57,207 nt of DNA from Chthoniobacterales bacterium (GTDB taxonomy: Bacteria; Verrucomicrobiota; Verrucomicrobiia; Chthoniobacterales; JAATET01): the NCBI GenBank assembly GCA_036569045.1, contig DATCRI010000034.1, forward strand, positions 1-57,207, read 5' to 3'. The stretch's first letter is position 1; each line of letters begins with the position of its first letter. The notes under the pieces are model-generated. The model ran no database searches. It was not told the origin of the DNA and saw nothing but the letters and a program-made list of their open reading frames with translations. This document shows positions 30,850 through 52,362 of this stretch, piece after piece. The position numbers and the translations under genes are program-made.

Positions 30850-30877
30850 GATGATGTGTCTTGGTGTGGTGGCGTGG

Positions 30878-31543: not shown

Positions 31544-31572
31544 GGCGGGTCGTGATGTCCGCGAATCCCTTG

Positions 31573-31589
31573 AGCTTCCGCGATGCCAA
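31573..31589 (-). promoter_or_regulatory. Candidate sigma-54 promoter of the amidohydrolase-permease operon
   Basis: On the minus strand the sequence TTGGCATCGCGGAAGCT has the invariant GG and GC dinucleotides separated by exactly ten bases, as required for -24/-12 promoters, and matches TGGCA in the -24 element. The -12 element lacks the usual TT. It ends 30 bases before the amidohydrolase ATG, and a sigma-54 activator is encoded in the neighbouring operon. Confidence 0.45.
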
Positions 31590-31674
31590 GTCGCCCCCGG
31601 AAACGCCGAATCCCTCACGTGGAGCGATTTACGTCCAAACGCGCCGTTCCGACCGGGGCGTCAGCGCGTGGCGG

Positions 31675-31702: not shown

Positions 31703-31746
31703 TCCGGGGCGGGGTCCATCGGGGCACCCACTGATTGGCACCCCGC

Positions 31747-35690: not shown

Positions 35691-35708
35691 GCGCGCCATT
35701 GTTGCGGG

Positions 35709-35725
35709 TGTTGCGTGCGGCAACA
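35709..35725. promoter_or_regulatory. Palindromic site TGTTGC-N5-GCAACA
   Basis: This is a perfect 17-base palindrome, preceded by one more direct TGTTGC copy at 35700-35705. It lies directly after the sigma-54 activator gene and about 120 bases upstream of the outer-membrane protein/biuret-hydrolase operon. The same half-sites occur upstream of the divergent amidohydrolase/kinase genes. No convincing -24/-12 promoter was found between it and 35844. Confidence 0.5.
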
Positions 35726-35843
35726 CGGGAAACAGGCGTGCATCGAAGAGAATGCGGACGTCGAATTTGCAGCATCTTGATAAGCAGGAGGTTGCGGCTT
35801 TTGCGGAAGCGTTGGCACAGGGCGTTCTCATTGGGGCGCTGCC

Positions 35844-36782
35844 ATGAAAACCACGCTGCCACACCGAAGCCGTTTCACCGCGCTCGCTGCGCTCGCTGCC
35901 ACCACCCTGCTCGCTTTGCCCACTCCTTCGTGGGCCGGCGTGCAGGATAAGACGCCGATCCCCGTGACCGAGCCCGAAAAGCCGAGCATCTTCCACGTGC
36001 TCTTCCAGAACCAGATCTCGAACTACTACATCACGCCTCGCGGCCTGATCGTGGAGGACGAGGGCCTCGTCTGGCAGCCGCTGCTGCTGCTCTTCGCGGA
36101 CCTCTACAAGGGCGACGGCTGGCTGAACAACGTGAAGCTCACGCTCGGCACCTGGAACAGCATCCACACGAAGAAGTCCTCGAATCCGAACACGACCACG
36201 CCGTATTGGAACGAATTCGACTTCATCGCCGGCCTCAGCACGACCGTGTTCAAGGACTGGACGCTCAGCGCGACCTACCTGCTCTTCGTGAGTCCCGTCG
36301 ATGACTACGAGCCGCCGAGCAACCTCGAGCTTCAGATCAGCTACACCGACCACTTCCTCGAGGGATTGACTCCCGGCATCGGCAAGGGATCGATCAATCC
36401 CTACGCGAAGCTCTTCCTCGAACTCGAGGACAAGGCGACTGTGTCGTCCACCGATTCGAGCTTCAACTTCGAGGTCGGCTTCGTTCCGAAGTTCACCTTC
36501 GATTTCTATCCCGTCAGCCTGGAGATTCCGACGTTCATTACCTTTCCGGGCAACGGATTCTATAGCGAGAATGGCGTTCCCGGCCTGATTTCGACTGGCT
36601 TGAAGGCGACCGTTCCGCTCAAATTCATCCCCAAGGAATATGGGTCGTGGAGTGTCTACGGGGGCTTGCAATACTATCACATCTACAACGACGGCATCGC
36701 GACGGGTAACACCTTCCTGCCTTCGCAATCCACGAACCGCGACCCCGTGCAGTTCTACGGCGGTATCACCCTTTTCTTCTAA
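35844..36782 (+). CDS. Outer-membrane beta-barrel protein upstream of biuret hydrolase
   Basis: This is a 312-residue exported protein with a signal peptide (MKTTLPHRSRFTALAALAATTLLALPTPSWA). The mature chain shows alternating aromatic beta strands (WTLSATYLLFVSP, SWSVYGGLQYYHIY) and ends in phenylalanine (YGGITLFF), the outer-membrane assembly signal. I do not recognise a named porin family. It lies 15 bases before the biuret hydrolase gene and has a GGAG-type ribosome site between them, so it may admit biuret or related compounds. A second unrelated porin-like gene heads the urea transport operon. Confidence 0.7.
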   Translation: MKTTLPHRSRFTALAALAATTLLALPTPSWAGVQDKTPIPVTEPEKPSIFHVLFQNQISNYYITPRGLIVEDEGLVWQPLLLLFADLYKGDGWLNNVKLTLGTWNSIHTKKSSNPNTTTPYWNEFDFIAGLSTTVFKDWTLSATYLLFVSPVDDYEPPSNLELQISYTDHFLEGLTPGIGKGSINPYAKLFLELEDKATVSSTDSSFNFEVGFVPKFTFDFYPVSLEIPTFITFPGNGFYSENGVPGLISTGLKATVPLKFIPKEYGSWSVYGGLQYYHIYNDGIATGNTFLPSQSTNRDPVQFYGGITLFF

Positions 36783-36797
36783 GAAAGGAGATTCGAA

Positions 36798-37484
36798 ATG
36801 AATGGGCGCTTCGTGGAATCCGATCCCTATCGCTGGCCTTATGATGGGGATCTGCGGCCGGAGAATACCGTGCTGCTCATCATCGACATGCAGACCGACT
36901 TTTGTGGAAAGGGCGGTTATGTCGACACGATGGGCTACGACATCCGGCTGACCCGGGCGCCCATTTACCCGATCCAGCGCGCGCTCGAAGCGGCGCGCGC
37001 GGGCGGGTATCACGTGATGCACACCCGCGAGGGGCATCGGCCCGATCTCGCGGACCTGCCCGCGAACAAGCAATGGCGCAGCCGACAGATCGGCGCGGGC
37101 ATTGGCGATCCGGGCCCCTGTGGTCGCATCCTCACGCGCGGCGAGCCCGGCTGGGAAATCATTCCCGAGCTGGCGCCCGCTCCGGGCGAGGCGGTGATCG
37201 ACAAGCCCGGCAAGGGCAGCTTTTACGCAACGGATATCGACATGCTCCTTCGCCAGAAGGGGATCCGAAACATCGCGCTGGCGGGCATCACGACGGATGT
37301 TTGCGTTCACACGACGATGCGCGAAGCGAACGACCGAGGCTACGAATGTCTGCTGCTCTCGGACTGCACGGCGGCGACGGACTACAACAACCACCTCGCC
37401 GCGTTGCAGATGGTGAAGATGCAGGGCGGAGTCTTCGGCGCGGTCGCGGATTCCAGGGCCTTCGTCGACGCCATCACCGGCTGA
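36798..37484 (+). CDS. biuH: Biuret amidohydrolase
   Basis: This is a 228-residue isochorismatase-family enzyme that hydrolyses biuret to allophanate and ammonia. It closely follows the Rhizobium biuret hydrolase: [16 protein letters not shown] at the N-terminus, [37 protein letters not shown] and [17 protein letters not shown]. The catalytic residues Asp30, Lys136 and Cys169 and the substrate glutamine Gln209 sit at a constant offset of six from the published Asp36/Lys142/Cys175/Gln215. This makes substrate assignment unusually secure for this superfamily. An AAAGGAG ribosome site precedes the ATG. The window holds urease but no allophanate hydrolase. Confidence 0.93.
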
Positions 37485-37537: not shown

Positions 37538-37906
37538 GTGAACCCTGAATCCATCGACCTGAAATCCCGCATCGAACTTCCCGAGCTGATGCGGCTCGCG
37601 CAGAAACCGGAGACGATCTCGTGGGAGCCGTTTCGTGACGGCGTGCGAATTCATCGTCTTTACGGGGACGGCGTGATCGGCCCGTGGGCCGCGCTTCTTT
37701 TCTACGAACCGGGCGGGCGCATCCCCCGGCACGAGCACATCGGCTACGAGCACATCTTCATTCTGTCCGGATCCCAGCGGGACGAGGCGGGCGAGTTGCG
37801 CGCGGGCACGCTGGTGATTCATCCGCCGGGCACGCGCCACCAGGTGGTCAGCGACGCCGGCTGTGTCGCGTTGGCGATCTATGAGAAGCCGGTGCAGTTC
37901 CTATAG
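37538..37906 (+). CDS. Cupin-domain protein (ChrR-like)
   Basis: This is a 122-residue single cupin from a GTG at 37538. The two cupin motifs are visible as PGGRIPRHEHIGYEHIFILSGSQRDE and GTLVIHPPGTRHQV; histidines in the first and last positions fit a metal site. It resembles the cupin half of ChrR-type anti-sigma factors but lacks the zinc-binding N-terminal helical part, so it may be a small metal-dependent enzyme or sensor. It follows biuH by 53 bases and may be co-transcribed. The last six bases overlap the convergent ureD gene. Function unknown. Confidence 0.75.
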   Translation: MNPESIDLKSRIELPELMRLAQKPETISWEPFRDGVRIHRLYGDGVIGPWAALLFYEPGGRIPRHEHIGYEHIFILSGSQRDEAGELRAGTLVIHPPGTRHQVVSDAGCVALAIYEKPVQFL

Positions 37907-38734
37907 TTTCCGCCAGAGCGGCAGATCGCGACCGGCCTGGGCGTAGACGAGTTCTCGGACGCCGGTGATCGCCTTGCGCATGGACGGGCTGTCCGCGGCG
38001 AGGATCTTTCCCACGAAGGCTCGCGGATTTAGCGCGCTTGCTCCGGACGCCACGCGGTCGCCGCTGAGCGCGCTGACGGATCTCACGAAGGGGCCGGGCG
38101 CGACCGGGTCGGGAAGGACGGCGAACCACGTCGCGTGGTAGGAGTGCTCGTGGTGCACGCGCAACGGGTGCAGGCTGTGATCTCCGGGCGAGAGGCGGCA
38201 GTTCTCCACGGCGACCAGCTCGCCGTCGACGGTGAGTCGCGTGCGGCAGCGCACTTTCTCGAAGGCGAAGACTTCCCCGCTGGCGACGCGGCCAGGGGCG
38301 AGGCAGTCCACGAAGAGCAGGCCACCATTGCCGGTGACCTCCAGCGTGCTCTCCTGCTCGTAGCGGGAACCGGCCTGGGCGATGAGCATCTCCGGACAGA
38401 CCTCGAGCCAGCCCCCGGCATCGACGGTGAACCGCTGGCGGACGTGCGCGGCGGGCTCATCCGCGCGCGCCCGATGGACGCGGCTCGCGCTGGGACTGGT
38501 GAAGAGCGCGCTCGCGGCAGGGCGGGCGGCGACGGAAATCTCGACGGTGTCGCCGGAAAAGAGACCGGCGGTGGGGTTCACCGCATTGATGATGAGCGTG
38601 CGGCCGTCCCAATGCGGCTTGCTGAGGTGCATGGGCGCGGCAAAGGATTGCGCGCCGACAAAGGTGCGGCCGGTGGCGGCATCGCGCTCGCAGACGAGGT
38701 GCAGGTGCCCATGCAAGGCCGCGCCGGCGGTCAT
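37901..38734 (-). CDS. ureD: Urease accessory protein UreD (UreH)
   Basis: This is a 277-residue scaffold protein that binds the urease apoenzyme and, with UreF and UreG, delivers nickel. The family pattern is present: [46 protein letters not shown], and [23 protein letters not shown]. Placing ureD last, after ureG, is common outside the enterobacteria. Its start overlaps the end of ureG by four bases, so the accessory genes are translationally coupled. Its 3-prime end overlaps that of the convergent cupin gene. Confidence 0.93.
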
Positions 38735-39333
38735 GCGAAGAGGTATTCGCGCCGCAGCCAGTCGAGCACGGCCTCCCGGCCCTGGCCGGACTTGAGATCC
38801 GCGAAGAGGAAGGGCTTCTCTCCACGCATGAGCTTCGCGTCACGGGCCATCACGTCGAGGTCGGCGCCGACGTGCGGGGCGAGCGTGATCTTGTTGATGA
38901 GCAGAAGATCGCTGTGGCGGATGGCGGGGCCGCCCTTGCGCGGGATCTTGTCGCCCTGCGCGACGTCGATCACGTAGATGAAGGCGTCGGCGAGTTCGGG
39001 CGAAAAGGTCGCGGAAAGGTTGTCGCCGCCGCTCTCGATGAGGACGACCTGCAGGTCGGGAATGCTACGGGTGAACGCGGCGACAGCCGCCTCGTTCATG
39101 CTCGTGTCGTCGCGGATGGCGGTGTGCGGGCAGCCGCCGGTTTCGACGCCGGCCACGCGGTCGGGGGAGAGGGCTTCGTTGCGCACGAGGAACTCCGCGT
39201 CTTCCCGGGTGTAGATGTCGTTGGTGACAACGGCGAGGCTGAACTCGTCGCGCAGCCATTGGCAGAGCCGAAGGACGAGCATGGTCTTGCCGGAGCCGAC
39301 GGGACCGCCGATGCCGATACGAATGGGTTTCAT
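38731..39333 (-). CDS. ureG: Urease accessory GTPase UreG
   Basis: This is a 200-residue SIMIBI-class GTPase that energises nickel insertion into urease. The P-loop GGPVGSGKT is at residues 9-17; [26 protein letters not shown] (with the conserved Cys-Pro-His metal site), [17 protein letters not shown] and the guanine-specificity segment [13 protein letters not shown] follow. Length and motifs are standard. The ATG overlaps the ureF stop (ATGA). The frame is open upstream within ureF, but the family N-terminus [10 protein letters not shown] fixes the start. Confidence 0.97.
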
Positions 39334-40025
39334 GAGATGAAGAGGCGTTCGTTGGAGAGTTCGTGGCGCATGCTCGCAAGGTCGAGGGCGGGGTCGAACC
39401 AGCCGATCTCGTCGAGCGGAATGCGCATCGCGCGCTCGACGGCCAGCGGAAGATGCTCGAGGGCGGCGGCGAGGCAGCGCTGGGCCGCCTCCTGGCCGAT
39501 GCGGAGAAGCTTCGGTGCGGCCATGCACTGGCAGGCGACGGTCTGGTAGAAGCAGGCGCCGAGGGCGACGGGGGCGGGTAGATCGGCGCAGGCGGCGCCC
39601 CAGACGACGGCGTGGTGGCCGCGGCTGGGCGTCGCATCGATCGCGGCGTGAAACGCCTCGAGTGCCGGGGTGGAGCGGACGCGGAGGAGCGTGGCGAGGC
39701 GGCGTCGACCGGTCTGGAGGCTGGCTTCGCGGAGCTCGCGCGGAAGCTTGAGCGCGCCAGCGAGGCGATCGATCTCGAGAAGCCGGTCGAGATTGCCGGC
39801 GGCGATGTGCGCCTCGCGGACGAGGGGAAGCTCGAGGTGCTCGAGGGCGGGGACGACGTGACGGCGGAGGAAGTCGATGAGCGTGGCCTCGTTGTGGACG
39901 CGGCCGGACTGCGTCATCTCCTCGAGGCCAAGCGAATGGGCGTAGCCGCCGCTGGGAAAGGTAGCGTCGCTCGTCTGGAGGAGGAACGGCAGCCAGGCGG
40001 GCAGGGCCTCAGTGGTGGTGGCCAT
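39330..40025 (-). CDS. ureF: Urease accessory protein UreF
   Basis: This is a 231-residue all-helical accessory protein that acts with UreD and UreG in urease maturation. Characteristic segments are [23 protein letters not shown] near the start and the conserved C-terminal [15 protein letters not shown]. The start at ATG 40025 lies inside the 3-prime end of ureE (17-base overlap), and the stop overlaps the ureG start. Both overlaps indicate coupled translation in the maturation block ureEFGD. Confidence 0.95.
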
Positions 40026-40431
40026 TCGCGATGGGGTGGAAGACGGCGTCGCGACTGGTGAAGGCAATGTGCTCGCGCTGGAAGTATTGCCGAACGGCGG
40101 GATCGTCGACCGTGCGGACGACCTCCGAGGTGGTCTCGACGAGAAAGTGGAGGTTGCCGATCTGCCAGCCGAGGCGAGCGGCGGCGCCGGAGCTGGCGGG
40201 AAGAGCGACCTCGAGGACGGGTTCGGGTTTCTGGACCAGAATGTAGGCGATGGATTCCTCGCGATGGACGACGTCGCCATCGTGGAGATGGTGTTCGAGG
40301 TCGAAGCCAAACTCGCGGCCGTCCGCAGCCGTGGCCCGCCAGCGGCGCTTGGAGAGGTCGGGGCGATCGACCGGAATGGCAATTGTCAGATCGATGGGAG
40401 ACTCCGCAGCGGCGTGGTGGACGAGGATCAT
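40009..40431 (-). CDS. ureE: Urease accessory nickel metallochaperone UreE
   Basis: This is a 140-residue nickel carrier for urease. It has the expected two-domain layout: an N-terminal beta domain (LSKRRWRATAADGREFGFDLEHHL) and a C-terminal metal-binding domain (QIGNLHFLVE). The tail ends with a short histidine cluster (GHHH), much shorter than the His-rich tails of Klebsiella UreE. Its ATG lies eight bases beyond the end of an inverted-repeat element that fills the ureC-ureE junction. No clear Shine-Dalgarno remains, so GGTGGT from the repeat may substitute. Confidence 0.93.
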   Translation of the reverse strand: MILVHHAAAESPIDLTIAIPVDRPDLSKRRWRATAADGREFGFDLEHHLHDGDVVHREESIAYILVQKPEPVLEVALPASSGAAARLGWQIGNLHFLVETTSEVVRTVDDPAVRQYFQREHIAFTSRDAVFHPIANGHHH

Positions 40432-40439
40432 GATTTTTT

Positions 40440-40520
40440 AACCACCAAGGCACCAAGGCACGGAGGAAGGCGAAGGGAGGAAATGTTTTCATCCCTTGGT
40501 GTCTTGGTGCCTTGGTGGTG
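40440..40520. repeat. CACCAAGG inverted-repeat element 1 (non-coding), ureC/ureE junction
   Basis: The left arm at 40441-40461 (AACCACCAAGGCACCAAGG and onward) pairs with the right arm at 40499-40519 in 20 of 21 positions. Each arm is built from an eight-base unit CACCAAGG/CACCAAGA. The 37-base centre resembles that of element 3. In the operon direction it begins 8 bases after the ureC stop and ends 8 bases before the ureE ATG. Confidence 0.9.
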
Positions 40521-40528
40521 ATTCTTCA

Positions 40529-42256
40529 TCAGAACAAAAAGTAGCGCTGGGCCAGCGGCAGGCTGGCGACGGGATCGCAGCGAAGTTCGCGACCGTCGGC
40601 CTTCACGGTGTAGGTCTCGGGATCGACCTCGATCTTCGGCAGGGCATCGTTCCAGAGAAGATCGCGCTTGGTGACGGTGCGGGTGCCGCGGACGGCGACG
40701 AGCCGCTTCGAGAGGCCGAGGTCGGTGAGGGTGCCGCCAGCAAGGGCAGCCTCGCTCACGAACGTGACGGAAGTGGCGCTACGGGCGCGGCCGTGGGCGG
40801 CGAACTGGGGCCGGTAAATCGTGGGCTGCGGCGTGGGGATGGACGCATTCGGGTCGCCCATGTTCGCGCAGGAAATGAGGCCGCCCTTGAGAATGATCTC
40901 GGGCTTCACGCCGAAGAACGCGGGCTTCCAGAGGACGAGGTCGGCGAGCTTGCCGACTTCGATGGAGCCGATCTCGTGGGCGACTCCGTGGGTGCGGGCG
41001 GGATTGATCGTGTATTTGGCGAGGTAGCGAAGAGCGCGGAAGTTGTCGGCGGCGGAGTGCGCGGACGGGCCGCCCTCGAGCTTGCCGAACTGCGTCTTCA
41101 TCTTGTGCGCGGTCTGCCACGTGCGCGTGATGACTTCGCCGATGCGCCCCATGGCCTGGCTGTCGCTGGACATCATGGAAATCGCGCCGAGGTCGTGAAG
41201 GAGGTCCTCGGCCGCGATGGTCTCGCCACGGATGCGGGATTCCGCGAACGCGACGTCCTCGGGGATGTTCGAGTCGAGATGGTGGCACACCATGAGCATG
41301 TCGAGATGCTCGTCGATGGTGTTGACCGTGTAGGGGCGGGTGGGATTCGTCGAGGAGGGCAGGACGTTCGCCTCGCCGCAAACGCGGATGATGTCGGGGG
41401 CGTGACCGCCGCCCGCGCCCTCGGAATGGTAGGTGTGGATCGCGCGGCCCTTGAACGCGGCGAGCGTGGCCTCGACGAAGCCGGCCTCGTTGAGCGTGTC
41501 GGTATGGATCGCGACCTGGACGTCGAACTCGTCGGCGACGCCGAGGCAGGTGTCGATCGCCGCGGGCGTGGTGCCCCAGTCTTCGTGCAGCTTCAGGCCC
41601 ATCGCGCCGGCGCGCACCTGTTCGCGGAGCGGCTCCGGCGTGGAGCAGTTCCCCTTGCCGAGGAAGCCGAGGTTGACGGGATAGTGCTCCGCGGCCTCGA
41701 GCATGCGGCGGATGTTCCAGGCGCCGGGCGTGCAGGTGGTCGCGTAGGTGCCGGTGGCGGGACCCGTGCCGCCGCCGATGAGCGTGGTCGTGCCGCTGGC
41801 GACGGCGTGCTCGATCTGCTGCGGGCAGATGAAATGGATGTGCGTGTCGATGCCGCCGGCCGTGACGATACAGCCCTCGGCGGCGATCACCTCGGTCGCG
41901 GCGCCGATCGTCATCGTGACGTCGCTCTGGATGCCGGGATTCCCCGCGTGGCCGATGCCGACGATGCGGCCATGCTTGATGCCGATGTCGGCCTTGATGA
42001 CGCCCTGGACCGCGTCGAGGATGAGGGCATTCGTGATGACGAGGTCGGGGCACTCGGCGTCGAGCGCGAGCGAGGACTGGCCCATGCCGTCACGGATGAC
42101 CTTGCCGCCGCCGAACTTCACCTCGTTGCCGTAGCCGCCGTTCTCGAGGATGAGATCGCGCTCGACCTCGATGAAGAGTTCGGTGTCGGCGAGGCGGACC
42201 TGGTCGCCAACGGTGGGGCCGAACATCTCGGCGTAGAGCTCGCGGGTGAGTTTCAT
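40529..42256 (-). CDS. ureC: Urease subunit alpha (catalytic)
   Basis: This is the catalytic subunit of urease, which hydrolyses urea to ammonia and carbamate with a dinickel centre. From ATG 42256 it has 575 residues, the normal length. Nickel ligands are visible in [12 protein letters not shown] (His139, His141), the carbamylated lysine Lys222 in GLKLHEDWG, and the flap histidines in [21 protein letters not shown]. An in-frame extension of 12 residues upstream (MVSWCLGG and onward) is translated repeat sequence and not part of the protein. Repeat elements flank both ends of the gene. Confidence 0.97.
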
Positions 42257-42267
42257 GAGGATTTTTT

Positions 42268-42707
42268 CACCACCAAGGCACCAAGACACCAAGGAATATG
42301 AAGATTCATAGGGCGATGCGTTTGAGGCCCTGCTTGATCAGCGGGACGTTGAAGTTGATCAGGAAGGCGAGGTGGAGACCGGAGAGTTTGAGGTAGGTGA
42401 GGGCTTGGGCGTGGTGGACGGGGAGAAGAGATTCCACCGTCTTGATCTCGATGATGATTTGGCGTTCGACGACGAGGTCGAGACGGAGGCCCGCTTCGAG
42501 TTCCAAACCTTCATAGACGATTGGCAGTGCGACTTGTCGCTCGAAGGTCAGACCACGGCGGTGGAGTTCGTGGGCGAGGCAGACCTCGTAAACCGATTCC
42601 AAAAGACCGGGGCCAAGCGATTGATGCACCTTGAACGCGGCATCGACGATCTGAGAGGCGATTTCATCCACCTCCGAAACTCTTGGTGCCTTGGTGTCTT
42701 GGTGGTT
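42268..42707. mobile_element. CACCAAGG inverted-repeat element 2 carrying the GxxExxY gene
   Basis: The left end 42268-42294 and the right end 42681-42707 are inverted copies of the arms seen in elements 1 and 3, but here they enclose a 405-base gene instead of about 36 bases. The element fills the ureB-ureC junction. In the operon direction it starts at the ureB stop codon (TGA directly joined to ACCACCAAG) and ends 11 bases before the ureC ATG. Its architecture resembles a gene-bearing member of a family with short non-coding derivatives. No target duplication could be defined with certainty. Confidence 0.65.
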
Positions 42708-42710
42708 CAA
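42306..42710 (-). CDS. GxxExxY protein (PD-(D/E)XK nuclease-like)
   Basis: This is a small protein of the uncharacterised GxxExxY family. The family motif is [10 protein letters not shown], and [16 protein letters not shown] gives the D...ExK arrangement of PD-(D/E)XK nucleases. The conserved ending [22 protein letters not shown] is intact. A TTG at 42710 inside the repeat would add [10 protein letters not shown], which is translated repeat; a GTG at 42671 gives a 121-residue protein that matches the family N-terminus better. The gene interrupts the urease operon on the operon strand and is enclosed by inverted repeats identical to neighbouring non-coding elements. A role in the mobility or maintenance of those repeats is a hypothesis. 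Confidence 0.85.
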
Positions 42711-43015
42711 AGCTTCCCGTTGATGAGGCCGTTGAGGCCGTAGACTTCGCGGGTGCCGGCAAGGGCGACGAGGTCGACCTCGCGGGTGTCGCCGGGTTCG
42801 AAACGCACCGCGGTGCCGGCGGGGATGCGCAGGCGGAAGCCGCGGGCGGCGGCGCGGTCGAAATCGAGCGAGGGATTGACCTCGAAGAAATGGAAATGGC
42901 TGCCGATCTGCACCGGGCGATCGCCGCGGTTCGAGACGGTGATCGTCTTCACCTCGAGGCCGATGTTCGCCTCGTGCGGTTCGGTCTTCGCGAGGATGTA
43001 TTCGCCCGGGATCAT
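42707..43015 (-). CDS. ureB: Urease subunit beta
   Basis: This is the 102-residue structural beta subunit of urease. The N-terminus [50 protein letters not shown] and the end [11 protein letters not shown] match the family throughout. Ten in-frame codons upstream of ATG 43015 come from a repeat element and should not be included. The stop codon is immediately followed by the GxxExxY-bearing repeat element, and a short repeat element separates ureB from ureA, which is unusual because these genes are normally adjacent or fused. Confidence 0.96.
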
Positions 43016-43022
43016 GAGTTTT

Positions 43023-43107
43023 GAACCATCAAGGCACCAAGACACCAGGAAAGGCGGAGGAAGGAATATTTTATCTCATCCCTTGGTGCCTTGGTGTCTT
43101 GGTGGTG
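43023..43107. repeat. CACCAAGG inverted-repeat element 3 (non-coding), ureA/ureB junction
   Basis: The left arm 43023-43049 and right arm 43080-43107 are inverted copies of the same CACCAAGG-unit ends found in elements 1 and 2. In the transcribed sense the centre begins GGGATGA and continues with CCT/CGCC-rich sequence like that of element 1. It starts 5 bases after the ureA stop and ends 7 bases before the ureB ATG. A large hairpin in the operon mRNA is expected. Confidence 0.9.
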
Positions 43108-43112
43108 AATCT

Positions 43113-43415
43113 TCATCGGATCGGATTGTGAACGGTAACGAGTTTCGTGCCGTCGGGGAAGGTGGCCTCGGCCTGCACCTCGTGGATCATTTCCGGCACG
43201 CCCTCCATGACGTCCTCGCGCTTGAGGATCGTGGTGCCGTAGCTCATGAGGTCGGCCACGCTGCGGCCGTCGCGCGCGCCCTCGAAAATCTCGTAGGTGA
43301 TGATGGCGACGGACTCGGGGTAGTTGAGTTTGAGGCCGCGTTGCTGGCGGCGGCGGGCGAGGTCGGCGGCGACTACGACGAGGAGTTTTTCCTGTTCGCG
43401 CGGGCTCAGATGCAT
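43113..43415 (-). CDS. ureA: Urease subunit gamma
   Basis: This is the 100-residue gamma subunit of urease. From ATG 43415 it starts [20 protein letters not shown] and continues [40 protein letters not shown] and [27 protein letters not shown], all standard. An in-frame upstream start would overlap the end of urtE and is not expected. It follows urtE within 10 bases, so urea uptake and urease genes form one transcription unit. Confidence 0.97.
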
Positions 43416-43425
43416 GCGATGTAGA

Positions 43426-44385
43426 TCACACGGTGAGGTGGGTTTTGACAACTTCGTCCGTCAGGTCCGCGACGGTGCCATTCGCGACCACGGCGCCGCG
43501 GTCGAGGATGGCGAAGTTGTCGGCGAGTTCCTTGCAGAAATCGAGATACTGCTCGACGAGCAGGATGGTCATCGATTTCTCGCTGTGGAGCTGGGCGAGA
43601 GCGGTGGCGATCTCGTCGCCGAGCACGGTGCCCTCGTGTGGCCCCTGTTTGCGGACGTCGTCGAAGGTGGTGGAGAGTTTTTCGAACGCGGCGGAGTCCT
43701 TGTGCGAACCGACGCGGCGGAGGGCGTTGATCTCGTCGGCGAGCTGATCGAGGAGCTCGGGCTTCGGATAATCGATCTCGGCGCGGAGCTTCTTGAGCGT
43801 CTGCGCGGCCTCGGCGAGGAGGCCGGGCTCGTTGTGGTGGCCGCCACGGCGGAGGAGTTTGATGGCGTCGCCGATCTGGTCGATGATGTTCGGCTGGATT
43901 CCCTCGGTGGGCTCGTCGAGGAGGAGGAGCGACGGCTCCGTGAGCAGGGCACGCCCGATGGAGAGCTGCTGCTGCTGGCCGCCGGAGAGCATGCCCCCCT
44001 TGCGGGCGAGGAAGTCCTTGAGGATCGGGAAAAGCGCGTAAACGCGCTCGACGGCACGTTTCGGGTTCTTGCCCTGCGCGGTCGCGCCGATGAAGAGGTT
44101 CTCCTCGACGGTGAGGTGGGGGAAGATGCCGCGGCCCTGCGGAACGTAGCCGATGCCGGCCCGGGCGCGCATTTCTGCGGGGAGCCGGGAGATGTCCTCG
44201 CCGTTGAAGACGATGCGGCCGGCGTTGGGCCGGTGAATGCCGATGATGGATTTCAGCGTGGTCGTCTTGCCGACGCCGTTGCGACCCATGAGACAGAAGA
44301 CCTGATTCGTGGGGATGTCGAGGTCGACCCCGCGAAGGATCCGCGAGCCATCAAGGGAAACCTGGAGATTTTCAATCTTGAGCAT
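43426..44385 (-). CDS. urtE: Urea ABC transporter ATP-binding protein UrtE with internal insertion
   Basis: This is one of two ATPases of the high-affinity urea importer. Walker [10 protein letters not shown] (34-42), signature [13 protein letters not shown] and Walker [14 protein letters not shown] are intact, and the end reads [17 protein letters not shown]. The protein has 319 residues, against about 230 for usual UrtE. The excess is an insertion of roughly 85 residues (about 178-265, starting [13 protein letters not shown]), placed between the D-loop helix and the VEQY switch strand. The reading frame is continuous and its codon use looks ordinary, so this is a real domain insertion rather than a frameshift. 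Confidence 0.93.
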
Positions 44386-44389
44386 GGAA

Positions 44390-45142
44390 TCAGTGTTTCT
44401 TTTTGCGGCCGAGGTAGACTTCGATCACGCGTTCGTCGGCCTGGACTTCGTCGAGGGTGCCGTCGCAGAGGACGTGTCCCTGGTGGAGGACGGTGACCTT
44501 GCTGCCGAGCTGGCGGACGAAAACCATGTCGTGTTCGATGACGATGATGGTGTGCTTGCCGACGAGGCTGAGGAGGAGCTCGCCGGTCTTGGCGGTTTCC
44601 TCATCGGTCATGCCCGCGGCGGGCTCGTCGACGAGGAGGAGCTGGGCGTTTTGCGCGAGGAGCATGCCGATCTCGAGCCACTGCTTCTGGCCATGGGCGA
44701 GCGTGCCGGCCTTCACCTCGGCGCGGTCCTTGAGGCCGATGGTCTCGAGGACTTCGTAGATGCGCTCCTTCTGCGCGGGCTTCACCCGGCCGAAGATCGA
44801 GGGCCAGACGCCGCGGCTGCCTTCGAGGCCCATGAGGACGTTCTCGAAGACGGTGTGGTCGCTGTAGACGCTGGGTGTCTGGAATTTGCGGCCGATGCCG
44901 AGGCGGTAGATCTCGTATTCACGCAGCTTCGTGAGCGGAGTGCCCTGGTATTCGATCTTGCCGACATCCGGCCGGGTGCGGCCGGTGATGAGGTCGAGAA
45001 AGGTGCTCTTGCCAGCGCCGTTTGGGCCGATGATCGTGCGCATCTCCCCCTTATCGAGGTAGAAGTTGAGATCGTTGATCGCCTTGAAACCGTCGAAACT
45101 CTTGGTGACGCCTTCGGCGGTGAGCAGGAAGTCCTGGTTCAT
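44390..45142 (-). CDS. urtD: Urea ABC transporter ATP-binding protein UrtD
   Basis: This is the second ATPase of the urea importer, 250 residues. Walker A is GPNGAGKST, the Q-loop lies in [19 protein letters not shown], the signature is [17 protein letters not shown] (LSGGQ variant typical of UrtD), Walker B is [11 protein letters not shown], and the switch histidine is in IIVIEHDM. It belongs to the branched-chain amino acid (LivG-like) family. It lies 4 bases before urtE, and its start overlaps the end of urtC. Confidence 0.96.
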
Positions 45143-46284
45143 TTCGTTTCCTCCACGGGAGTGTTGGTGGGTGCGGGTGCGTCGGGTTCCCGGGAGTTCT
45201 TGTAGCGGCGCCAGATGTCCATCACCTGGCCGGGGATCCCAACGATGCCCTTCGGCATGAAGAGCACGACGATGACGAACATGCCGCCGAGGAAGATCGG
45301 CCAGTAGGCGGGGTAGGCCTGGCTGGCCCAGCTCTTGAGGGCGTTCACGACGATGGCGCCAACGACCGGGCCGAGCAGCGTGGCGCGGCCGCCGACGGCG
45401 ACCCAGACGACGGCTTCGAGGGATTTGGCGGGCTCCATCTGGCTGGGGTTGATGATGCCGACCTGCGGGACGTAAAGGGCACCCGCGACGCCGGCGATCA
45501 TTCCCGCGACGACGAACACGAAAAGTTTGAAATTCGCGGCCGCGTAGCCGGAGAAGAGCACGCGGTTTTCGCTGTCGCGAATGGCGCGCTGGACTTTTCC
45601 GAATTTCGTGAGCGTGAGCCAGCGGCAGAAGGCATAGACAACGACCAGGGCGACCGCCGAGGCGATGTAGAGCGCACGCTGGGTTTCCACGCTGCCGAGC
45701 TGCGCTCCGAAGAGCGTCTTGAAATCGGTGAAGCCGTTGTTGCCGCCGAGGGTGAGCTCGTTGCGGAAGAAGAGCAGGCAGGCTGCGTAGGTGAGCGCCT
45801 GGGTGAGGATCGAGAAATAGACGCCCTTGATGCGGGAGCGGAAGGCGAGGTAGCCGAAGATCAGCGCCACGAGGCCGGGCACCCAGAAGACGGCGCCGAT
45901 CGCGAACCAGACATTGTAGAATGGCTCCCAGTGGATCGGCAGCTTGTTGTAGCCGAGGAACACCATGAAGTCGGGCAGGTCGCTCTTGTATTGGCCCAGC
46001 TTGCCGATCATCAGCATGAGGTGCATGCCGAGGGCGTAGCCGCCGAGCGCAAAGAAGAGCATCTGGCCGAGGCTCAGCAGGCCGGTGTAGCCCCAGAGCA
46101 GGTCGATGCTCATCGCGACGATCGCGAGGCAGAGATACTGGCCCCAGAGGTTGATGTTGAAGTTGCTGACGTGCAGCGCGCTTCCGTCCGGCGTGAAGGC
46201 GTTGAGCGCCGGCACGATGAAGATGAGCACCGCGGCAAAGAGGGCCGCGATGAGGATTTCGATTTTGGAGACCTCGGATTTCAT
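45139..46284 (-). CDS. urtC: Urea ABC transporter permease UrtC
   Basis: This is one of the two membrane permeases (LivM-like), about 381 residues from ATG 46284; a TTG at 46299 is possible. Around ten membrane helices are present. The family segments [53 protein letters not shown] and [20 protein letters not shown] are intact. The C-terminus is a short polar Pro/Glu tail. It lies between urtB and urtD and forms the channel with UrtB. Confidence 0.95.
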
Positions 46285-46288
46285 CGGT

Positions 46289-48013
46289 TCAATTTTCAAG
46301 GCCGCGTCCCTTCGTGGCGAAGAGGCCGGATGGCTTCCACTGGAGGAAGAGGATGATGGCCACGAGCACGAGCACCTTGCCGATCACCGGGTTGCGGAGC
46401 AGCGTCTGAAGAATCTGGTCGGTGGTGCCGATGCCCAGCGCGGAGATGACCGTGCCGATGAGGTTGCCGACGCCGCCCACGACGACGACCATGAAGGAGT
46501 CGACGATGTAGGTCTGACCGGTGCTCGGGCCGATGTTGCCGATCTGCGAGAGGAACGCGCCAGCGAGGCCGGCGAGGCCGCAACCGAAGGCGAACGTGAG
46601 CATGTTGATCTTCTCGGTGCGGACGCCCATGCAGGAGGCCATGTTGCGATCCTGCATGACGGCGCGAATGAGCAGGCCGAGCGGCGTTTTTGCCAGCAGG
46701 AGCGAGGTTCCGATGACGATGACGATGGCGAAGCCGATCACGAACACGCGGTTGTAGTTCATGATGACGTCGCCGACCGAGAAGCTGCCGAGCAGCCAGG
46801 CGGGCGAGTAGACCGGCGCGTTCGCGGGGCCGAAGACGAGACGGAAGATCTGCTGGAGCACCAGGGAGACGCCCCAGGTCGCGAGGAGCGACTCGAGCGG
46901 GCGGCGGTAGAGGAACTGGATGACGCTGCGTTCGAGGAGCAGGCCGACCGCGGCGGCGCTGAAGAAGGCGACCGGCAGCGCGAAGAGGAAGTAGCTTTGA
47001 TACATGCCCGAGGCCGGGTCGAAGCCGAAGCCGGGGATTCGCAGCGTGAGGCCGAAGGGCGCGAGGGAAACGCCGTTGCTGAAGACGCATTGCGTGAGGT
47101 AGGTCGCGTAGCCGCCGACGACCATGATCTCGCCGTGGGCCATGTTGATGACGCCCATGAGGCCGAAGGTGATCGCGAGGCCGAGGGCGACGACGAGGAG
47201 CACGGACCCGAGGCTGACGCCGCGGAAGATCGTGCCGAAGAAGTCGACCCAGAAGAGGTGATTATCGATGGCGACGAGCGTGGACGTGGCCGCGGCCTTC
47301 ACGTCGGCGGGGGTGCCGGGGTTGTTCGCGATTGCGGTGACCATCGCCTTGCTGGGCACGGAAGTGGTCTTCTTGAGCTGCTTGAGCGCGGCGATTTTCG
47401 TCGCGGAATCGGGCGACGCCAGCTGCGTCATTGCAATGGCCTGGGTGATGGCGTCCTTCACGGAAGGATCGGTCTCGACGGCCATGCGAGCCTCGAGGAT
47501 CGGCAGGGAAGTGAGAGATTGCTTCATGCCGAGCTTGAGAATGGCGCCCTTGCGGGTGTCGGGACTTGGATCGGCGAGGGCGAAGAGATCGGTGGTCGCG
47601 CGGATGGCGCGGCGGAGTTTCGAACTGGTGTCGACGGGAGTGAGGGCGCTCTCCTGGAAGGTGAGGGCGGCGCCGGAGGCGTCCGTGAGCGGTTCGCCGG
47701 TGTCGATGCGGATGGCCTTGCCCTCCTTGAGCGTGAAGGCCGTTTTGGCGCCGTCGGGCGCGGTGAAAATGTATATGCCGCCACGTTGCCAGGCTTCGAG
47801 AAGATCCTTCAGAACGGGATCGGGCGTGGAGGCGAGTCTGGCGACGAGGTCGGGCTGGGCGCTCTCTTCCGCGACGATGGCGGCGGCGAGGCCCTGCCGG
47901 GCGGCCAACTCCGGCGCATCCGCTGCGCGGGTGGCGCTGAGCGAAGAAAGGCCAAGGAACAGGACGAGGACCGCCCGGGCTTGAATGTGGAATCGTTGGA
48001 ATCTCGCTTTCAT
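46289..48013 (-). CDS. urtB: Urea ABC transporter permease UrtB
   Basis: This is the second permease of the urea importer, 574 residues. A signal-like N-terminus ([21 protein letters not shown]) leads a periplasmic helical region of about 250 residues with HEAT-like repeats ([24 protein letters not shown]), which is a normal feature of UrtB. The LivH-like membrane part then starts near residue 265 ([30 protein letters not shown]) and ends with [17 protein letters not shown]. The segment [14 protein letters not shown] is the typical permease-ATPase contact loop. The stop overlaps the possible TTG start of urtC. Confidence 0.95.
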
Positions 48014-48104: not shown

Positions 48105-49376
48105 TTAGTTCTTGCCGAAGGTTCCCTTGAGGAAGGGCTCGGGGTAGACCTGCTTGAATTCCTCCACGATCTTGAACTGCCCGTCGGCCTTGGTTTCGCC
48201 GATGTAGACGTTCTTCTTCGTGTGGTGATTTTTTTCGACGGTGTTCAGGCCGTTCGGTCCTTCGAAGGTGATCTTGCCGGACTCGAGGACCTCGCGGACC
48301 TTGTCGACATCGAAGCTGCCGGCTTTTTCGACCGCGGCCTTCCAGAGGTAGACGCCGTCATAGGAGAGGACCATCGGGCTGCAGGTGACGCGGTTTTCCT
48401 TCTCGATGCCGGGGACGGTCGAGGTCTTCAGCCAGGCGAAGAAGTCGCTCTTGAATTTCGCGTTGGCGGGCGAGTCGATGCTCATGAAATAAGCCCAGCA
48501 GCCGAGCTGGCCGACGAGATCCTTGGCCGGGAGCGAGCGGAACTCGTCCTCGGAGAGGCTGAGGGAAGCAACGGGGCAGTCAGCCGCGGTGAGGCCGGCG
48601 CCGGCGAGTTCCTTGAAGAACGGGACGTTCGAGTCGCCGTTGATCGTGTTGATCACGCAGGCGTCGCCCGTGGCGGCGAACTGTTTGATCTCGGCGACGA
48701 TCTGCTGGTAGTCGGTGTGGCCGAAGGGCGTGTATTTGCCGGCGGAGATGACCTTGCCTGCCTCGTCCTTGCGGAGACCGCCGCCGATGTTCTCGATCGG
48801 GACGCCCTTGCTGAGGAGATACTCGAGGAGCACGAGGTTCGTGGTCTGCGGGTAAACGTAGTCGGTGCCGATGAGGTAGAACTTCTTGCGGCCGTCCTCG
48901 AGGAGGTAATCCACGGCGGGAATGGCCTGCTGGTTCACGGCTTCGGCGGTGTAGAAAATGTTCTTCGACATTTCCTCGCCCTCGTATTGCACTGGGTAGA
49001 AGAGGAGGCCGTTGTCTTTCTCGAAGACGGGCAGCACGGACTTGCGGCTGACCGAGGTCCAGCAGCCGAAGACGACGGCGACCTTGTCGACTTCGAGGAG
49101 CTGCTTGGCCTTTTCGGCGAAGAGCGGCCAGTTCGATGCGCCGTCGACGACGACGGGCTCGATCTTCTTGCCGAGCACGCCGCCCTTGGCGTTGATCTCG
49201 TCAAAGGCGAAAAGCAGGACGTCGCGCAGCGAGGTTTCGCTGATGGCCATGGTGCCGCTGAGCGAGTGGAGGACGCCGACTTTGACAGTGTCGTCGGCGG
49301 CGTGGAGCGGAGAGAGCGCTCCGACCGACAGGCCGACGCCGGCCGCGAGCGCACTGATGGATTTGAGGAGTTTCAT
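48105..49376 (-). CDS. urtA: Urea ABC transporter substrate-binding protein UrtA
   Basis: This is a periplasmic binding protein of 423 residues with a signal peptide ending near LHA-ADD. The mature protein shows the urea-binding family pattern: [54 protein letters not shown] and [12 protein letters not shown]. It feeds urea to UrtBC. It is separated from urtB by a 90-base spacer and from the upstream porin-like gene by a strong hairpin. This may set high expression of the binding protein relative to the transporter. Confidence 0.97.
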
Positions 49377-49458: not shown

Positions 49459-50289
49459 TTAGAAGGACAGTTTGATGCCGATGTTGCCGGTCACGAAGTT
49501 GTTGGCCGGGTTGCTCGGAAGGACGTAGTTGTTGGTGTTGTAGTAGGTGATGCCGCCGTGGAGCTCCCAGCTGCCCGGGAGGTAGGGGATCGGCACGCTG
49601 CCGTTCAGGCCGAGGGCCGTGTAGGCATAGCCACCGCCGGCGCCGTGGTAATACTTGGTGCAGAAGCCCATCGCCGCGGAGGGGGTGATGGTGAGCGGCC
49701 CGATCTTGATGTTGTAGCTGAGGTTCGGGACGAAGAACGTGCCGTTCTGGCCGCCGCCGCCTTCGGCCGCGCCGGGATCGAGACGGTTGTGGAAGGTGAT
49801 CGCCGGATTCAGGAACATGTTGTTCGAGTATTTCAGGATCACGTCGAGGATCTGCTCGGTCTGGCCGCCGTAGTTCCATGCCTGGTAGAGCACGGTGGCG
49901 GACAGGTCCTTGTAAGCATAGGATGCGCCAGTCCAGACATCGACTTCCTGGATCATGCCGCCGATGGACGAACGGGTGTTGTTATTGACGTCCCACCACG
50001 TGCCGACGACGAACGTCAGGCCGGGCACGGGAGTCGCCCAGGCCAGTTCCATGGACGGGTTGAAGACGCCTTTGTTCCAGTTCGTCCCTCCGCCCCAGAC
50101 GTCAGCGCCGTAGGAGATGAAGTGACTGTTCAGGTCGAAGGACATCCAGCCGCTGAAGGCAGGCTTTTCCTCGACTTCCACGACGACTTCCTTCTTCGCG
50201 GCCATCTCGGTCCCGGCCTGGCAGGGCGCGTGAACGAGAAGGGCGACGGCGGCAGTCGCGACGATGCTCGATGGCAATTTTCGTAACAT
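49459..50289 (-). CDS. Porin-like outer-membrane protein of the urea operon
   Basis: This is an exported 276-residue protein from ATG 50289 with a signal peptide (MLRKLPSSIVATAAVALLVHAPCQA). A short Glu/Lys/Val-rich linker (KKEVVVEVEEKPAF) precedes a chain of amphipathic beta strands (WMSFDLNSHFISYGADVWGG, LPGSWELHGGITYYN), and the protein ends with GNIGIKLSF, a C-terminal aromatic outer-membrane signal. It is the first gene of the long urt-ure run, so it may form the outer-membrane route for urea or amides. I do not recognise a named family. A candidate LytTR site lies about 120-155 bases upstream. Confidence 0.72.
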   Translation of the reverse strand: MLRKLPSSIVATAAVALLVHAPCQAGTEMAAKKEVVVEVEEKPAFSGWMSFDLNSHFISYGADVWGGGTNWNKGVFNPSMELAWATPVPGLTFVVGTWWDVNNNTRSSIGGMIQEVDVWTGASYAYKDLSATVLYQAWNYGGQTEQILDVILKYSNNMFLNPAITFHNRLDPGAAEGGGGQNGTFFVPNLSYNIKIGPLTITPSAAMGFCTKYYHGAGGGYAYTALGLNGSVPIPYLPGSWELHGGITYYNTNNYVLPSNPANNFVTGNIGIKLSF

Positions 50290-50406
50290 GGGTGTTGTTC
50301 CTTTGTTTGTTTGTTTTTTAAGGCATCCGCCCGTCGAAGGACCGGCGAATGACAAGGCGCGAACCCAGCACGAAATGCACCGCGACAGCGCTGCGAAGCA
50401 GTCTTG

Positions 50407-50445
50407 TCCGCGAACCGGGCAGACTATTCCGCGAATCGGGCAGAC
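50407..50445 (-). promoter_or_regulatory. 21-bp-period direct repeat, candidate LytTR operator
   Basis: TCCGCGAACCGGGCAGAC (50407-50424) and TCCGCGAATCGGGCAGAC (50428-50445) differ at one base and have a period of exactly 21 bases. LytTR regulators bind paired direct repeats with about this two-turn periodicity. The pair lies between the LytTR response-regulator gene and the urea operon, 118 bases or more before the first start codon of that operon. It is the likely control site of the urt-ure run; there is no experimental evidence. Confidence 0.6.
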
Positions 50446-50467
50446 GCTCCGACTCGCCGTGCCAACT

Positions 50468-51193
50468 TCATCCGCGCCGGAGGAGCGACTGCAGCCGGGA
50501 GCGAGCCGCGCGACGAATTTTGACCAGCTCCGGTCGCCCGTGGATCGTCAGGTGCGCGGAATCGCGCGAGCTGACTTTCATTTCCTCGAGGTGCTCGAGA
50601 TTGAGGATGAAGGAACGATCGAGGCGCACAAACTTCGTGTGGGCGAGCATGCCCTCCCACACGCCCATGGTGCGGTCGATGAGCAGAGCCTCGCCATCGA
50701 GCAGCCAGACGGTGCTGTAATTGCCATCGGCAACGATGTGCGTGATCTGCCGCACGAGCACGACGCGCAGGCCCTTGCTGGTGCGGAGGAAGACGCGGTC
50801 CTCCTCGCGCACGGCCTCCGGGGGGTGCTCGGCGTCGCTCACCCGCCGGCCGAGGCGACTGAGCGCGAGGGCGAGGCGATCCTCGAATACGGGTTTCAAC
50901 AGATAGTCGATCGCGTTCACCTCGAAGGCTCGCACGGCATATTGCTCATAGGCGGTGACGAAGATGATCTCCGGCACGTGGCTGATCCGCGAAAGCAGCT
51001 CGAAGCCCGACCCTTTCGGCATCTGGAGATCGAGGAAGAGCAGCGTGGGATGGAGCGCATGGCAGGCCTCGGCGGCCTGGGCGACATTCGCGGCCTCGCC
51101 GACAATCTCCACTTCGGGGTGCGCCTGGAGTAATTCCCGCAGGTGGCTCCGGGCGGGAGCCTCGTCATCGATCAGAATGGCGCGCCACATCAC
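50468..51193 (-). CDS. LytTR-family response regulator
   Basis: This is a 241-residue regulator: a receiver domain with acidic pocket IDDEAPARSHL and phosphoacceptor Asp55 (LLFLDLQMPKGSGFELL), a linker, and a C-terminal LytTR DNA-binding domain (RVFLRTSKGLRVVLVRQITHIVADGNYSTVWL, KFVRLDRSFILNLEHLEEM). Its start overlaps the stop of the sensor kinase gene (ATGA), making them a standard pair. Its position upstream of, and in the same direction as, the urea-uptake/urease run, plus the 21-base direct repeat in the gap, suggests it controls urea use. Confidence 0.95.
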   Translation of the reverse strand: MMWRAILIDDEAPARSHLRELLQAHPEVEIVGEAANVAQAAEACHALHPTLLFLDLQMPKGSGFELLSRISHVPEIIFVTAYEQYAVRAFEVNAIDYLLKPVFEDRLALALSRLGRRVSDAEHPPEAVREEDRVFLRTSKGLRVVLVRQITHIVADGNYSTVWLLDGEALLIDRTMGVWEGMLAHTKFVRLDRSFILNLEHLEEMKVSSRDSAHLTIHGRPELVKIRRAARSRLQSLLRRG

Positions 51194-52362
51194 GAGGGGT
51201 CCATGCGCTGGCGCAGTTCGTAATTCTGCAGCCGCACGTCGTAGTCGTGGTCCATCTGGATTTCCACGAGTGCGATGACCTCGCCGTTGCGTTCACCGAT
51301 CTCGAAGCGGTGCCGGTCCGGGTAGATGGATTCCAGCCGCCGGCGGAGGTTGTCGATGCCGCAGCCGGAGGCCTGGTTCTTCTGCCAGGGCTGCGGCTCG
51401 AGCCAGTGCCCGGAGTTGCAGACCTCGATGCGCAGCGCGTGGGGGCTCGTCTCCGCAGCGATACGCAGTCGCAGCGGCATCTCGCTGGTCTCGCGACCAT
51501 ACTTGATCGCGTTTTCGACGAGAGGCTGGACGATCACGCCGGGCACGCCGGCCGAGCGGGCCATCGGGCTGACGGCGAGTTCGAGCACGAGATCGCCTTC
51601 GAAGCGCGATTTTTCGACCTCGAGGTAGCTCGAGATGGCGTCGATCTCCGCGCCGAGCGAGACGAAACCCTCGTGGCGGCACGCCAGCGAGTAGCGCAGG
51701 TAGTCGGAGAGGCCCTTCACCAGCGCGGTGACCTTGGGATTCCCGCGGCCTTCGCTGAGGATGGTGTTGAAGGCATTGAAGAGGAAGTGGGGGTTCGTCT
51801 GCGAGCGGAGCATCTGCAGCTCTGCGTCGTGGCGCAGGCGCTCCGCGTCGACGAGCTGCCGCGTCTTTTCCCGGGTTTCGAGCAGGGCCTGGATCGAGAA
51901 ATACAATCCGCTCCACGCCACGAAGAGCAACGTGCGGAGGCAGAAGATGTAACCGGTGTAGTTTGCCTCGGACACGTGGAGAGCGTTCGCGCCGACGAAT
52001 TTCTCGACTTCGAGGAAAATCAGGGAGTCCAGCCCGGCGGCGAGGACGGAGATCGCGACCATCAGCGGTGCGAGCACCCATGCATCGAACCGCCGGATGT
52101 TCGTCCGCCGATAGATCTCGCGCAGGCCGATCGTGAGCAGAAAGCCGATGAACTCCTGCGTGAGGCCCATCCAAAGGCCTGTCGAGATCGAGGTGTAGTG
52201 ATAGAAATGGAGCGGGAGCGCCCAGATCGTCCATCCCGCGAATCCGAGAATCTGGAAGCGCCAGAATGGGGGCGTCCGGTCCAGAATGGCTCTCCGCAGG
52301 CTGCCTTTTCGCGGCTGCCAGTATTGAACGAGATCGCCGAAATAGGTGATGGGGAGGTTCAA
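51190..52362 (-). CDS. LytS/YehU-type membrane sensor histidine kinase
   Basis: This is a 390-residue sensor with about four to five N-terminal membrane helices (residues 36-165: FAGWTIWALPLHFYHY, FIGFLLTIGL, VLAPLMVAISVLAAGL, LRTLLFVAWSGLYFS). A short coiled linker leads to the His_kinase domain, whose phosphoacceptor is His192 in SQTNPHFLFNAFNTI. The ATPase part shows QPLVENAIKYG and a divergent G box (SGCGIDNLRRRLESIY). There is no separate extracellular sensor, so the ligand is probably sensed within the membrane. The stop overlaps the LytTR regulator start. Confidence 0.93.
   Translation of the reverse strand: MNLPITYFGDLVQYWQPRKGSLRRAILDRTPPFWRFQILGFAGWTIWALPLHFYHYTSISTGLWMGLTQEFIGFLLTIGLREIYRRTNIRRFDAWVLAPLMVAISVLAAGLDSLIFLEVEKFVGANALHVSEANYTGYIFCLRTLLFVAWSGLYFSIQALLETREKTRQLVDAERLRHDAELQMLRSQTNPHFLFNAFNTILSEGRGNPKVTALVKGLSDYLRYSLACRHEGFVSLGAEIDAISSYLEVEKSRFEGDLVLELAVSPMARSAGVPGVIVQPLVENAIKYGRETSEMPLRLRIAAETSPHALRIEVCNSGHWLEPQPWQKNQASGCGIDNLRRRLESIYPDRHRFEIGERNGEVIALVEIQMDHDYDVRLQNYELRQRMDPS

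Follow-up and report, generated by a model that had tools for sequence, protein, structure and literature searches.

Upstream of a urea uptake and urease operon in a Chthoniobacterales bacterium lies a pair of direct repeats that is likely to be the operator of the LytTR-type response regulator encoded upstream of it, acting on a run of porin-urtABCDE-ureABCEFGD genes, most likely via a sigma-54-like promoter. Judging from sequence comparison, the repeat is real and conserved, and it is very probably the operator of its neighboring regulator. The locus lies in contig DATCRI010000034.1 of assembly GCA_036569045.1, of which the window, as we call the whole stretch of 57,207 nucleotides that was analyzed, spans positions 1 to 57,207.

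Repeat Pair and Gene Context

The two 18-base repeats occupy plus-strand positions 50407-50424 (TCCGCGAACCGGGCAGAC) and 50428-50445 (TCCGCGAATCGGGCAGAC), are identical at 17 of 18 bases, and start 21 bases apart, just as an initial annotation of this DNA had described them. The gene coordinates also agree with its placement of the repeats between a LytTR regulator gene and a porin-urt-ure run, within a spacer of 178 bases bounded by the end of the regulator gene at 50468 and the start of the porin gene at 50289. The minus strand carries the regulator and porin genes as well as urt and ure, and on this coding strand the conserved unit, as delimited by comparison with relatives, is CCCGRTTCRCGGA, which appears twice (50440-50428 and 50419-50407). 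The two CCCGRTTCGCGG boxes of the proposed LytTR operator are a distal half-site CCCGATTCGCGGA (50428-50440, minus strand) and a proximal half-site CCCGGTTCGCGGA (50407-50419, minus strand), with a start-to-start distance of 21.

The regulator (50468-51193, minus strand), which is the protein proposed to bind the repeats, combines a receiver domain (PF00072, 73.9 bits, cut-off 30.2) in which the phospho-acceptor aspartate is present (FLDLQMP), with a LytTR domain (PF04397, 38.7 bits, cut-off 22.6) with the motif FVRLDRS. Overlapping its gene by 4 bases is that of a histidine kinase of the LytS/AlgZ kind (51190-52362, minus strand; PF06580, 73.7 bits), which has a hydrophobic N-terminal part and in which the profile search recognized no sensor domain. 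The first gene after the repeats (49459-50289, minus strand) appears, from the signal peptide and size of its product, to encode a porin-like outer-membrane protein, which had no match in Pfam or NCBIfam. It is followed by urtA, for the binding protein of a urea ABC transporter (48105-49376, minus strand; TIGR03407, 497.8 bits, cut-off 492.75), by urtB, urtC, urtD and urtE (43426-48013, minus strand; TIGR03409, TIGR03408, TIGR03411 and TIGR03410, each above cut-off), and by the urease genes ureA-B-C-E-F-G-D (37901-43451, minus strand), among which ureC was identified by profile (TIGR01792, 936.9 bits, over cut-off) and the others are presumably as named, from their order and characteristic features. 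UrtB (46289-48013) carries an N-terminal extension of approximately 260 residues, with a HEAT-like signal, ahead of its permease part.

Conservation in Related Genomes

A search for the porin-like protein in 213 genomes of the order returned matches in 14. Three of these (G041, G105, and G047) keep the entire kinase-regulator-porin-urtABCDE-ureABCEFGD order, including a kinase orthologue adjoining the regulator and a conserved block of urease genes; their regulators are 61-62% identical to that of the window, and their porin-like proteins 70-75%. All three belong to one genus, in another family than the window, and as close kin they amount to about one independent comparison. Their spacers contain the double box CCCGATTCGCGGA-N8-CCCGATTCACGGA, such that across the window and the three relatives the half-sites are invariant at 24 of 26 positions (13/13 in the distal half-site; 11/13 in the proximal, where both differences are purine changes). 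Identity in the other blocks of the same four loci is 5/20 in the 20 bases upstream, 2/8 between the half-sites, 4/24 in the 24-base linker, 7/16 in the sigma-54-like element described below, and 8/37 in the 37 bases downstream, and the flanks of the half-sites are at near-chance identity. The phylogenetic footprint in relatives with the same gene order, which the initial annotation had proposed as a check on the site, thus falls on the half-sites themselves.

A second comparison is provided by G054, from the same family as these three but another genus, in which the porin-urt-ure operon is preceded by an orphan LytTR gene whose product is 34% identical to that of the window. Its spacer holds a diverged pair, CCTGATTCGCG-N10-CCTGTTTAGCG, also of period 21, and the repeat pair is therefore found with a LytTR gene in five of five LytTR-linked urt loci. 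As asparagine replaces the phospho-acceptor aspartate in the G054 regulator (L184, 13772-14620), and no kinase gene lies beside it, phospho-control is ruled out in this genome, and the protein is possibly a phosphorylation-independent descendant. In G014 and more distant porin relatives we found neither a LytTR gene nor such a repeat; sigma-54-like sites such as TGGCACAATTATTGCT are present there. Regarding the history of the operon, G001, G002, and G003, which are the three other genomes of the window's genus, contain no urtA at E ≤ 1e-100, and the UrtA of the window is approximately 90% identical to that of a genus in another family, which suggests that the operon moved between families.

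Survey of Other Urea Transport Loci

Searches for UrtA gave matches in 31 of the 213 genomes from the order, and in 91 of 384 sampled in the class. Besides the five LytTR-linked loci, we surveyed 80 upstream stretches, namely every one of the 26 in the order plus 54 of the 76 outside it. None of these 80 encodes a LytTR domain upstream, while G041 and G054, used as positive controls, did give one. The survey bears out the earlier suspicion that a LytTR arrangement at urea genes is unusual, and, by their titles and the opening lines of their abstracts, none of the open-licence papers found on LytTR and urease deals with urease regulation by a LytTR protein. Twelve stretches with less than 1.7 kb upstream, retained in the LytTR count, were excluded from the count of sigma-54-like sites (defined here as a GG-N10-GC core with a score of at least 10/12). 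Among the other 68, 36 carry such a site on the coding strand 950-1350 bases ahead of urtA, versus one on the opposite strand; in the interval of 1400-1800 bases the counts are six and five.

A Sigma-54-Like Element at a Fixed Distance From the Repeats

The spacer of the window also contains a weak sigma-54-like element, CGGTGCATTTCGTGCT (50367-50382, minus strand), which has a GG-N10-GC core and agrees with TGGCACRNNNNTTGCW at 8 of 12 positions. This core is present in all five LytTR-linked urt spacers, being the top or joint-top sigma-54-like stretch in each, and its offset from the first base of the proximal half-site is 37 in the window, G041, G105, and G047, and 36 in G054. Scored as a -24/-12 element against TGGCACRNNNNTTGCW, G054 equals the window (8/12), and G041, G105, and G047, where the element is TGGCCCGCCYGCTGCT, reach 10/12. 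A core scoring at least 6 is single in four of the five spacers, G105 having an extra weak core (6/12) three bases upstream. Of 20,000 random 16-mers with the composition of the window's spacer, a fraction of 0.0008 had the core together with a score of 8 or more; the identity of the window's element block to its relatives is by itself not above background. Other LytTR loci of the order with a period-21 box have no sigma-54-like element at the +37 offset, which marks the composite as special to urt loci. RpoN is encoded in 14 of 14 genomes searched, including the window's own (G000; PF04552, E 5.3e-59).

Since the -24/-12 element stands at a fixed distance from the repeats, LytTR control would seem to be layered on nitrogen-type control. 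The initial annotation had named NtrC/GlnR-type control as the norm for urea genes; what is new is that LytTR control has probably been added to a nitrogen-type promoter here, rather than replacing it. On the simplest reading, a LytTR operator has been superimposed on the ancestral sigma-54 promoter of porin-urt.

Replacement is nonetheless a serious, if less likely, possibility: the regulator might bind the repeats at an ordinary sigma-70 promoter, with LytTR having supplanted NtrC-type control and the GG-N10-GC core persisting as a relic of the ancestral sigma-54 promoter. Consistent with such decay, the -24/-12 score falls from 10-12/12 in many unlinked urt loci to 10/12 in G041, G105, and G047, and to 8/12 in the window and G054; further, a TATATAAC stretch lies just downstream in G054, and LytTR proteins are normally sigma-70 activators according to the available text of PMC6193735. 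However, no sigma-70-type promoter was found in 50250-50600, and a relic sits uneasily with an offset of 36-37 in five of five loci and a lone core scoring at least 6 in four of five spacers.

No conserved enhancer site was found upstream of the window's element, and a search of the DNA preceding the sigma-54-like sites of 43 other urt loci likewise yielded no enhancer motif common to them. A candidate NtrC-type activator is encoded in the window (34224-35690; PF00158, 222.3 bits), and we found nothing tying it to this promoter. This PF00158 sigma-54 activator belongs to a plus-strand series (31735-37481) that also includes a CHASE-domain hybrid kinase, a second porin-like gene, and a biuret amidohydrolase (NF050097, 414.8 bits, cut-off 370), and runs towards the urease genes. 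Between the activator gene and the second porin gene is a perfect dyad, TGTTGC-GTGCG-GCAACA (35709-35725, plus strand), followed by TGGCACAGGGCGTTCT, which together may constitute an enhancer and a sigma-54-type promoter. When up to two mismatches were allowed, two or more dyad matches arose in approximately 30 of 100 shuffles, the present dyad having none; it is not repeated upstream of the window's porin-urt element. The minus-strand stretch 29275-31618 encodes another biuret-hydrolase-like protein (273.6 bits, below the cut-off of 370) and, beside it, a membrane permease of 524 amino acids with no match in Pfam or NCBIfam. With the plus-strand series running towards the urease genes, the region has the look of a nitrogen island for biuret plus urea, with two regulatory systems.

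Probable LytTR-Type Character of the Site

The period of 21 bases had been put forward as that expected for LytTR binding, and it fits both published geometry and the LytTR loci of the order. The accessible sections of PMC4847170, and likewise of PMC4064291, describe the sites of LytTR regulators as 9-11 nt repeats with 11-13 nt spacers. In a motif-free scan of 127 LytTR loci for exact 11-mer pairs at periods 13-33, 13 loci had a pair at period 21 and at most five at any other period, and many of the period-21 words in LytTR loci are variants of CGATTCGTC. Across periods 12-33, TTCG-type pairs in 48 LytTR loci of the order numbered 12 at period 21 and at most two at any other, by a consensus that was written after examples had been seen, the motif-free scan giving the same period. 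Four of these 12 pairs are those of the window and its three orthologues, and the remaining eight fall in six loci. As a control, 154.5 kb of non-LytTR places contained one pair, at a locus which had been chosen by the pattern. At the other LytTR loci L012, L017, L023, L027, L197, and L202 of the order, CGATTCGTC pairs of period 21 are found, often 40-90 bases before short secreted-looking proteins, which suggests that CGATTCGTC is a LytTR box of general use in this group. The CGATTCG-type core formed no period-21 pair in 80 named LytTR loci of other groups, taken from the public species collection, and the core is thus a feature of the order and not of LytTR regulators generally. The same 80 loci were rejected as orthologues of the window's locus, since, apart from generic ABC ATPases, none has urt or ure genes in its neighborhood.

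Direct repeats spaced near two helical turns are also used by AraC- and PhoB-type proteins, and it could be argued that another tandem-binding regulator of such a kind uses the repeats, the LytTR gene being a mere neighbor. We hold this to be improbable, given that period-21 boxes recur at the other LytTR loci of the order, are absent from the non-LytTR control save for the one pattern-picked locus, and are missing from the upstream sequences of urt loci without LytTR. The gene adjacent to the repeats encodes a LytTR domain and a receiver with its phospho-acceptor aspartate, and a cognate PF06580 kinase is encoded next to it. The half-site resembles the AlgR box CCGTTCGTC with one inserted base; it does not match any shared LytTR consensus, though none is agreed, as far as the available text of PMC4847170 and PMC4064291 indicates.

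Specificity of the Double Site

With up to one mismatch, the double site occurs at a single place in its own genome. At zero mismatches it occurs at six places in the 213 genomes of the order, five of which are the LytTR-linked urt loci; as the pattern was drawn from these five loci, finding them again is guaranteed, and the information lies solely in how rare the site is elsewhere. The sixth place, in G090, lies in a repetitive coding stretch with no LytTR gene in the 8 kb examined, and was set aside as chance. Allowing one mismatch added 14 further places, mostly background since a reversed control pattern gave a comparable nine. A single half-site with two mismatches had 594 matches in the window's own genome versus 249 for the reversed control, and was rejected as a search pattern, only the double site being specific. 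Given this rarity, the regulator looks dedicated to one target.

Some LytTR systems self-regulate through direct repeats, in the account of them available from PMC6193735, and the site might control the kinase-regulator pair itself, or end its transcript, without acting on the urea genes. This is very improbable: the site lies 3' of the regulator gene and 5' of the porin gene on the same strand, the genome has no further double site, whether near the kinase gene or farther away, and no terminator-like site was found in the spacer.

The probability that chance or neutral tandem duplication made the pair, a notion to which the copy number of just two lends itself, is negligible, as an 18-mer pair with at most one mismatch arose in none of 20,000 dinucleotide shuffles of the 178-base spacer, and the idea is refuted by the conservation of the half-sites but not of the eight bases between them. 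In the whole 57,207-base window there is no second 18-mer pair with at most one mismatch at periods 18-40, and the double 13-mer pattern (up to three mismatches) occurs once, and in none of 100 shuffles.

Discussion

Taken as an operator, the repeat pair invites a mechanism in which the kinase would respond to a signal and phosphorylate the LytTR regulator, which would then occupy both half-sites, each of 13 bases, as a head-to-tail dimer; at two helical turns, the 21-base period would keep it on a single face of the DNA. The bound regulator would alter transcription of porin-urtABCDE-ureABCEFGD, from a start site most likely served by the -24/-12 element, which follows the first base of the proximal half-site by 37 nt. 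With that element as the promoter, the half-sites would be positioned at about -84 to -72 and -63 to -51, between the promoter and the usual place of an enhancer. LytTR proteins have no ATPase and cannot open a sigma-54 promoter alone, and an NtrC-type activator would therefore still be needed, alongside which the LytTR regulator may serve either as a co-activator that bends the DNA in response to a signal or as a brake. The place proposed for such a bending protein is one where IHF often acts. More speculatively, we propose a class of composite promoter in which a LytTR protein, 36-37 nt from the -24 element, might be a phosphorylation-controlled bending protein or a brake on an NtrC-type activator, and in which two independent signals could govern urea uptake.

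Parts of this arrangement have counterparts in known systems. Escherichia coli YpdA/YpdB and YehU/YehT (BtsS/BtsR) similarly pair a PF06580 kinase with a LytTR regulator, have a metabolic rather than a virulence target, and place two direct repeats of approximately 21-base period before a transporter-type gene. The present locus differs in its urea and urease target, in the sigma-54-like element just downstream, and in the sequence of its half-sites, the YpdB repeats being GGCATTTCAT in the portion of PMC4847170 consulted. In the AlgZ/AlgR system of Pseudomonas, the AlgR box (as quoted above, from the available part of PMC4064291) resembles both the CGATTCGTC of the order's other LytTR loci and the CCGATTCGC of the window. 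Unlike the boxes of the window, AlgR boxes commonly occur singly and well away from the start, and the same portion of PMC4064291 describes no fixed LytTR-to-(-24) distance. It does report that both AlgR and RpoN are needed for full expression of algC in P. syringae (PMC4064291), which by analogy is a genetic hint of LytTR/sigma-54 pairs. Staphylococcus aureus AgrA also engages two direct repeats as a LytTR dimer, and its proximal repeat, centred near -60 in the available text of PMC4227749, may be likened to the proximal half-site of the window, which would lie at approximately -57 if the sigma-54-like element is the promoter; AgrA differs in serving quorum sensing, and in its sigma-70 promoters with long spacers. 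Finally, urt and ure are under NtrC or nitrogen control in several proteobacterial groups, according to the accessible text of PMC5343134. The sigma-54-like sites before most urt operons of the class (36/68) are in keeping with this, whereas a LytTR two-component system with its operator inserted upstream distinguishes this small group only.

LytTR regulators are known mainly from virulence, bacteriocin production, quorum sensing, and a few carbon-uptake systems. Here, the urea-scavenging operon of one lineage has apparently acquired such a regulator, and because relatives without the regulator keep only the sigma-54-like promoter, the change from one control to two is datable and testable. 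Should the LytTR protein in fact act at a sigma-54 promoter, the combination would be one for which we are aware of genetic hints only, namely those for AlgR and RpoN at algC.
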